A program made the position numbers and the translations under genes. Positions 39,128 through 43,516 of a DNA stretch of 64,000 nt are shown here, one piece after another. The notes beneath the pieces were generated by a model. The model was not told where the DNA came from. It made no database searches and worked only from the letters and a program-made list of their open reading frames with translations. Every line of letters starts with the position of its first letter. The stretch's first letter is position 1. The stretch lies in NCBI RefSeq assembly GCF_001238295.1, contig NZ_LGXZ01000011.1, forward strand, positions 62,001-126,000, read 5' to 3'. The DNA is from Ruegeria sp. 6PALISEP08. Its GTDB lineage: Bacteria; Pseudomonadota; Alphaproteobacteria; Rhodobacterales; Rhodobacteraceae.

Positions 39128-39604
39128 TTAGCTGTGATCTTTCAACAGCCGCTGTTTCTGCCGTGACCAATCCCGCTTGGCTTGCGTTTCCCGCTTGTCG
39201 TGGATCTTCTTGCCTTTGGCGATCCCGATCTTCAGCTTGGCCCGGCCCTTATGGTTGAAATACAGAACCAGCGGCACCAGCGTCATACCTTTGCGCTGGG
39301 TCGCATTCCAGAGATTGGACAATTCCTTGCGTGATACCAGCAACTTGCGACGGCGACGCTCTTCGTGCTTGAACACTTTGGCCTGTTCGTAAGGTGCGAT
39401 GTAGCAGTTGATCAGCCACAGTTCGCCATCATCGACCGAAGCATAGCTTTCGGCGATGTTCGAGCCACCGGTTCGCAGGGACTTTACCTCGGACCCTTCC
39501 AGAACAATACCGCACTCGATATCCTCTTCGATCGCATAATCGAAGCGGGCGCGCCGGTTTTCGGCGATTACCTTGTAATTTGGGTCTGTCTTTTGTTTGG
39601 CCAT
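39128..39604 (-). CDS. smpB: SsrA-binding protein SmpB
   Basis: A 158-residue SmpB that delivers tmRNA to stalled ribosomes. Signatures: '[34 protein letters not shown]', '[14 protein letters not shown]', '[13 protein letters not shown]' and '[40 protein letters not shown]'. tmRNA itself is not seen in the window. ArfB, a second rescue factor, is encoded 3.2 kb away. Confidence 0.95.
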
Positions 39605-42834: not shown

Positions 42835-43254
42835 TCAATCTTCGGACACTTTGCCCCGCAGTGTTTTTACATCGCTTCGGGCCTTTTTCGCAGCAAGCCG
42901 ACGTTTGACCGAGCCATAGGTGGGTTTCGTTGCGATCCGCCGTTTGGGTTTGACCAACGCGCGGGTGATCAGTTCAGCCAGTCTGGTACGCGCAATTTCC
43001 CGATTACGGGCCTGCGATCGCGTTTCTTCGCACTGGATGATGATCGCACCATCCTTGGTCCAGCGTCGCCCGGCCAGCCGTTTCAGCCTGTTCTTGACCG
43101 GATCGGGTAAAGAAGGCGAGCGCGCAGCCTCAAATCGCAACTCAACAGCGGTGGAAACCTTGTTGACGTTCTGCCCACCGGGACCGGAAGAGCGGACAAA
43201 GCTTTCGGTCATTTCCCAGTCTTGCAGGATGATATCGTCAGTGATGTGCAACAT
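42835..43254 (-). CDS. arfB: Ribosome rescue factor ArfB (YaeJ)
   Basis: A 139-residue class-I release-factor-like protein. The catalytic GGQ is at residues 26-28 ('FVRSSGPGGQNVNKVSTAVELRF') and the basic C-terminal tail ('PKRRIATKPTYGSVKRRLAAKKARS') that enters the mRNA channel is intact. It hydrolyses peptidyl-tRNA on stalled ribosomes. The start at 43254 follows family convention; an ATG seven codons upstream (43275) also has no SD. A terminator hairpin ends 34 bp upstream. Confidence 0.9.
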   Translation of the reverse strand: MLHITDDIILQDWEMTESFVRSSGPGGQNVNKVSTAVELRFEAARSPSLPDPVKNRLKRLAGRRWTKDGAIIIQCEETRSQARNREIARTRLAELITRALVKPKRRIATKPTYGSVKRRLAAKKARSDVKTLRGKVSED

Positions 43255-43288
43255 GGGGCGGATCTTATAGGGCATGGATGGAAACAGA

Positions 43289-43315
43289 AAGGGCCGCCCC
43301 TATGGGACGGCCCTT
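43289..43315 (-). terminator. Hairpin terminator/attenuator just upstream of arfB
   Basis: On the minus strand AAGGGCCG, U, CCC, AUA, GGG, G, CGGCCCUU forms a 12-bp stem with a U-G wobble and 3-nt loop, followed by UUUCUGUUU. On the plus strand the same position has a C-A mismatch, so the structure favours the minus strand. Confidence 0.7.
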
Positions 43316-43385
43316 CGAAAGTTCAGGAGGTCGGGTCGGTTAGATCAATCGACCAGCCGGAGCGAGCGCTCCGCCAAGGGCTGCC

Positions 43386-43442
43386 CTAGCAGGCTTTCCC
43401 CCCGGTTGTTCCGACACCTCTCTCCAATCTCTTTCTTGACAC
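43386..43442 (-). CDS. 18-residue basic leader peptide with perfect 16S-complementary SD
   Basis: A GTG-started ORF of 18 codons (MSRKRLERGVGTTGGKAC) ends with TAG. Its Shine-Dalgarno is AAAGGAGGTGATCCAG, 16 bases exactly complementary to the 16S rRNA 3' tail, with the core AGGAGG seven bases before GTG. The peptide is rich in Arg/Lys and ends in Cys. It probably is translated; whether the product or the act of translation matters is unknown. Confidence 0.5.
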   Translation of the reverse strand: MSRKRLERGVGTTGGKAC

Positions 43443-43457
43443 TGGATCACCTCCTTT
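43442..43457 (-). promoter_or_regulatory. Extended Shine-Dalgarno complementary to 16 nt of 16S rRNA
   Basis: The 16-base match includes the full anti-SD plus the GGATC stretch before it and reaches the first base of the GTG start. Normal sites match 4-8 bases. Confidence 0.6.
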
Positions 43458-43516
43458 TCTATTTGTTGCGGTTGAAATTGAGCGTGGCACAAGATGCGCC
43501 ATTCTCAAAGCACTTT

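Follow-up and report, generated by a model that had tools for sequence, protein, structure and literature searches.

The window analysed here, 64,000 nucleotides of Ruegeria sp. 6PALISEP08 (contig NZ_LGXZ01000011.1, positions 62,001 to 126,000), carries on its minus strand an element in which an extended Shine-Dalgarno (SD) sequence, complementary to the 3' tail of 16S rRNA, is followed by a short open reading frame (ORF), a structured middle, a conserved 3' block and a terminator (Table 1). Downstream lies arfB, and a second rescue gene, smpB (tmRNA partner, 39128-39604, minus strand), is found 3.2 kb away; both were identified from their translations. The anatomy given in a preliminary description of this DNA (a 16-nt 16S complement, an 18-codon GTG ORF, ACCTCCT and a U-tailed terminator) is borne out on this strand, with changes in detail. 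The match is exact over 16 nt here, but the invariant core of the family has only 14 nt, AAAGGAGGTGATCC, which is the complement of the entire single-stranded 16S tail. The terminator does precede arfB, but the distance is about 10 nt to the first in-frame ATG (43275) and about 30 nt to the conserved start (43254), not 34. ACCTCCT can pair with the SD, but only with its core, whereas the SD 3' half and the start codon are predicted to pair with AUUGGA inside the ORF.

Table 1. Features of the element and its surroundings, in positions of the window
Feature	Positions	Strand	Basis
Extended SD AAAGGAGGTGATCCAG, complement of 16S tail CTGGATCACCTCCTTT	43442..43457	-	Unchanged in 41 aligned relatives
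18-codon ORF, GTG start, TAG stop, peptide VSRKRLERGVGTTGGKAC	43386..43442	-	Comparative sequence evidence
Predicted promoter of the RNA gene: -35-like CTTTGA (43510-43505) and -10-like CACGCT (43486-43481)	43481..43510	-	Inferred from conservation
P0 5' arm UCCAGU (SD 3' half and start codon)	43441..43446	-	Family-wide covariation
P0 3' arm AUUGGA within the ORF, partial 16S-tail mimic	43423..43428	-	Covariation, folding
P1 5' arm GUCGG, codons 10-11	43411..43415	-	Conserved complementarity to the 3' block
P2 5' arm CCGGGG, codons 13-15	43400..43405	-	Covarying helix, 0/20000 permutations as good
P2 3' arm CUCCGG, spacer past the stop	43357..43362	-	Covarying helix
Conserved 3' block CUAACCGACCCGACCUCCU: P1 3' arm CCGAC (43339-43335) and ACCUCCU (43331-43325)	43325..43343	-	
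Intrinsic terminator GAAGGGCCGUCCC-AUA-GGGGCGGCCCUUUCUG, U-tailed GC hairpin	43285..43316	-	Arms covary in relatives
Predicted arfB -10-like box TAAGAT, adjoins ATG (leaderless)	43262..43267	-	49 distinct upstream sequences
arfB (GGQ rescue factor), neighbour outside the RNA gene	42835..43254	-	Start conserved in relatives; open frame from 43275

The 16S tail of the genus reads GGCTGGATCACCTCCTTTCT in three same-genus genomes, the assembly of the window's own genome lacking its 16S end. The first 15 nt of the 16S match, with at most one mismatch, occur once in the 4.46-Mb genome. All 41 aligned Rhodobacterales sequences have the same SD core. Elsewhere in the family the match can differ in its last two bases, which are a spacer base and the first base of the GTG start codon. 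In the literature searched, the core sequence was found only as primers and as YbeY oligonucleotides. Genomes with GGTGGTCC would be the candidates for coevolution with 16S variants; 16S 3' ends are nearly absent from the assemblies analysed. The plus strand reads CTGGATCACCTCCTTT, as at the end of a 16S rRNA gene, which might suggest a gene fragment or a chance match. However, the similarity stops at the tail, Rfam at its cut-offs finds no match in the window, rRNA included, and promoter, helices and terminator are conserved. This explanation is refuted by conservation of the element in 50 of 61 Rhodobacterales genomes, and its probability is close to nil.

The same perfect 16S complement also stands at the start of ordinary-looking viral reading frames of 61 to more than 100 codons (L187, L188, L191 and L192). 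In such viral and phage genes the match serves simply as a strong SD, so a switch cannot be deduced from complementarity by itself.

The preliminary description had made its reading depend on the element not being absent from related genomes. With two mismatches allowed, the 20-mer AAAGGAGGTGATCCAGTGTC was found in 34 of 37 same-genus genomes, in one copy each. A search of about 85,000 species, each represented by one genome, gave more than 100 loci among the matches listed, mostly in Alphaproteobacteria, and these loci share the layout of SD, short ORF and terminator. The exact sequence AAGGAGGTGATCCNRTG is present in 80 of 161 alphaproteobacterial genomes versus 1 of 236 genomes of other Pseudomonadota in an even sample, in which a reversed-sequence control was found in no genome. 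In 60 Rhodobacterales loci, promoter-like boxes keep a constant spacing to the SD; other Alphaproteobacteria have counterparts of the type CTTGAC ... CATACT/CTATATT at a near-constant distance upstream. Relatives across the class adjoin unrelated genes. By these comparisons, the element is an independent small RNA gene that has its own predicted promoter and its own terminator. The alternative reading offered earlier, a stand-alone RNA that would meet the 30S subunit, is supported. One copy per genome is the rule; two genomes (G048 and G563) carry the core twice, and the spacer bases differ between the copies. A list of Paracoccus small RNAs contains nothing for the element.

In 54 of 64 Rhodobacterales-type loci the next gene downstream is arfB, its conserved start lying a median of 33 nt past the terminator; none of 107 other loci has arfB there. 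The Rhodobacterales count is what favours a leader or attenuator that senses 30S availability and controls arfB, as first proposed. The element is, however, equally conserved without arfB, and a -10-like box is conserved at -13 to -8 before the arfB ATG, in a fixed place past the terminator (T at -13 in 30, A at -11 in 37 and T at -8 in 30 of 49 distinct sequences). These 49 upstream sequences have no SD before the ATG, as in leaderless mRNAs. Such mRNAs are common in the class, with 375 mapped in Caulobacter (PMC4117421). Because the conserved box stands just before the ATG and past the terminator, arfB is predicted to have a leaderless promoter of its own. The candidate antiterminator strand past the stop codon, GGCAGCCC, resembles the 3' arm of the terminator but is near-constant while that arm changes, as compared by eye. 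Thus arfB is probably independent of the element, and its control by the element, against which the absence of arfB from the 107 other loci and the -10 box before its ATG speak, appears very improbable.

CC2171 (RF01867) is the Caulobacter small RNA of Landt et al. 2008. No function is given for it in the later literature searched. A permissive search matches the window element to the CC2171 model from end to end (34.4 bits, E 7.9e-6), below the curated cut-off of 75 bits, and the element is the sole match of the model in the whole genome (E 2.3e-5). The model matches 50 of 61 Rhodobacterales genomes and reaches the cut-off in none of the 61. The cut-off therefore misses every Rhodobacterales member tested, which calls for a correction of the database. 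Four relatives, in Bosea, Methylobacterium, Brevundimonas and Falsiroseomonas, are scored by Rfam as CC2171. The model match rests largely on the SD block.

Like CC2171, the window element has a CAAC-rich 5' end followed by the block AAAGGAGGTGATCCAGTGTC, a start hairpin, a structured middle and a terminator, which by its sequence forms the 3' end of a stand-alone gene here too. The CC2171 helix of UCAUUGUC with GACAAUGG (GACAAUG, just before the terminator) is missing; the SD core with ACCUCC (ACCUCCU) takes its place. Unlike CC2171, the window element also has a fixed 18-codon ORF, the P2 helix and arfB as neighbour. Many CC2171-like relatives are without the CCUCC block and have GACAAUGGA as 3' block. 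The subfamilies are linked by intermediate forms, as in the peptides VSYEVLVLEEG of Devosia and VHHEVLEKCVG of Rhodobacterales. The element therefore appears to be a Rhodobacterales variant and remote relative of CC2171, a kinship which match, layout and intermediates support but do not prove. Rfam 15 counts CC2171 among those families for which a single new covarying pair was detected (PMC11701678), and its member in Mesorhizobium huakuii is a 215-nt RNA by RNA-seq (PMC5596092).

The element folds far more stably than shuffled sequences (z -5.6, 0/200). P0 is formed by UCCAGU and, within the ORF, AUUGGA. In the forms from Rhizobiales, Caulobacterales and Acetobacterales, the strand inside the ORF has the sequence CTGGATC or a near variant, which gives TW[IT] in the peptide; in gammaproteobacterial look-alikes it is CACTGG. 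Variants at the SD end have matching partners (GATCCCG/CGGGATC, GATCCTGT/GCAGGATC and GATCCAAT/ATTGGGTC), and permuting the variants among 113 representatives supports the covariation (p 0.0001). P2 joins codons 12-15 to the spacer past the stop. Its mean duplex energy is -12.4 kcal/mol with own partners versus -8.5 kcal/mol with swapped ones, none of 20,000 permutations being as good, and compensatory sets include ACGCGGG/CCCGCGT, TTCAGG/CCTGAA, CTTGTGG/CCACAAG and CTTATGG/CCATAAG. P2 became visible only after anchoring on conserved blocks, as MAFFT with RNAalifold alone models the variable middle poorly. P0 and P2 are helices demonstrated by these comparisons. Within Rhodobacterales, P0 and P1 hardly vary and therefore rest on invariance and folding there.

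In the predicted fold of the full-length RNA, the SD core is paired with ACCUCCU just ahead of the terminator, so that the CCUCC block, an anti-SD seed, is present but paired. In a general test, the SD self-duplex scores lie only moderately below those of shuffled sequences, the mean z ranging from about -1 to about -1.6. Two features are new here on this comparative evidence: the pairing in which a copy of the 16S tail inside the RNA takes up the 3' half of the SD and the start codon, with covarying sides, and the strongly covarying helix between codons 12-15 and the sequence past the stop. The switching between SD-open and SD-paired forms suggested earlier is supported as a predicted capability of the RNA.

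The ORF has 18 codons in all 62 distinct Rhodobacterales sequences, and it ends in TAG in 37, TAA in 16 and TGA in 9, never in TGG. The mimic motif of the CC2171-like subfamily is mostly 34, 37 or 40 nt from the start and falls in one frame in 45 of 48 cases. Among 184 family sequences, frame 0 is closed before codon 12 in 2, while the other two frames are closed in 50 and 69. The comparative evidence thus argues that the ORF is translated. In Caulobacter, ribosome profiling found two former 'ncRNAs' to be translated (PMC4117421). If the element were simply a small-protein gene whose SD is very strong, the maintained frame and stop would be accounted for, and phage genes do use the same SD. 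However, residues 13-18 are free in Rhodobacterales, the peptides are wholly different between subfamilies, and the conserved residues coincide with RNA helices, so that a small-protein gene is quite improbable. The frame is, on these counts, maintained by selection although the peptide is not, which is also new here. That the product is the RNA and the peptide is thrown away is part of the reading favoured below.

Opening the SD together with the start codon costs 9-11 kcal/mol at every RNA length tried. For the AAGGAGGU core by itself the cost is about 2 kcal/mol in the nascent RNA and 6-7 kcal/mol once ACCUCC exists. Pairing with the 16S tail yields -11.6 kcal/mol with the core and -28.2 kcal/mol with all 16 nt. 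The start hairpin could hardly be opened with the energy from an ordinary SD, but easily with that from the complete tail, and we therefore read the arrangement as a toehold by which a competent 30S subunit would open the RNA.

The proposed mechanism starts from the autonomy and conservation of the gene, P0, P2 and the maintained frame, all established by sequence comparison. In the nascent RNA the SD core AAGGAGGU would be exposed, with the start codon and the SD 3' half held in P0. A 30S subunit would land on the core, and its complete free 3' tail would displace the start hairpin; perfect complementarity would be explained if only whole-tail pairing gives the energy to displace P0. Translation of the short ORF would then melt P0, P1 and P2 and free the 3' block (CUAACCGACC..CCUCC). 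If no 30S subunit arrived before the 3' end was made, the 3' block would close the SD core. In this way the RNA would signal how plentiful competent 30S subunits are, or would silence itself once a burst of translation is over. As output, the freed 3' block might pair with other mRNAs, or the 30S subunit might be retained. A stand-alone CC2171-type RNA that is ribosome-gated in this way, by pairing with the 30S subunit, is the reading that we favour, although its probability falls somewhat short of one half. The wider proposal, a widespread switch with the ribosome as ligand that only an intact free 30S 3' end opens and that so reports ribosome supply, is doubtful at present.

A 30S decoy without a switch has also been considered. 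Such an RNA would bind the anti-SD tail and hold or titrate small subunits, for example during starvation, its hairpins merely protecting it. The perfect complement of the whole free tail, the stand-alone gene and the unconserved peptide would fit a decoy, but it needs neither a selected open frame with a stop nor an internal mimic as a competitor of 16S binding, and we regard it as unlikely. Similarly unlikely is a base-pairing small RNA of the anti-SD type, in which the CCUCC 3' block covers the SDs of other mRNAs and the 5' SD and ORF regulate activity or life span. The conserved C-rich 3' block agrees with this, and such seeds are usual in alphaproteobacterial small RNAs such as SisA-D (PMC12559287), but the CCUCC block is absent in many CC2171-like relatives.

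SisA-D in Caulobacter and BbsR14 in Bartonella (PMC7717549) resemble the element in that their 3' block, of the CCUCC type, can form pairs with SDs. They differ in that the block here faces the SD and ORF of the same RNA, whose 5' part complements 16S rRNA. As in leader-peptide attenuators of the trpL type, translation of a short ORF would select between RNA folds, but here the downstream gene is not fixed and no antiterminator covaries. The extended SD sites of Staphylococcus aureus (PMC13009471) are comparable because pairing past the SD core toward the start codon is involved in initiation. There, two further pairs are formed in ordinary mRNAs, whereas here the whole tail would pair in competition with an internal mimic.

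The sensing of free or damaged 30S subunits by bacteria is an open question, for which the proposed ribosome-gated RNA offers a candidate that is concrete and can be tested; roughly half of the sampled alphaproteobacterial genomes have the element. A small RNA family filed without function here combines a whole-tail 16S complement, an internal tail mimic and a putative throw-away ORF.

The same layout is seen outside Alphaproteobacteria, in Phycisphaerae (L041, L042, L044 and L101), other Planctomycetota (L050 and L140), Lujinxingiaceae and Myxococcales (L070 and L083), Krumholzibacteriia (L049) and Deltaproteobacteria (L112). These look-alikes have a perfect 16S-tail complement, a GTG ORF of 9-16 codons, a structured middle and mostly a terminator, and long internal 16S-tail mimics are present in L049 and L112 (GGGATCACC and CTGGGTCACC). 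No alpha-type promoter was found in them, nor an Rfam match at the cut-offs in those scanned; the likeness may reflect either homology or convergence. In the gammaproteobacterial look-alikes of SAR92 (L088) and Cellvibrionales (L119), the terminator hairpin is reached before any in-frame stop codon, so that the transcript would be a non-stop mRNA and a substrate for ribosome rescue.

In several subfamilies a hairpin with the loop CAGC or CAGU (GAGCAGCCUC and GGGCAGCCC) recurs at the end of the short ORF or shortly ahead of it. It is found at 43386-43378 in the window and may be a protein site.
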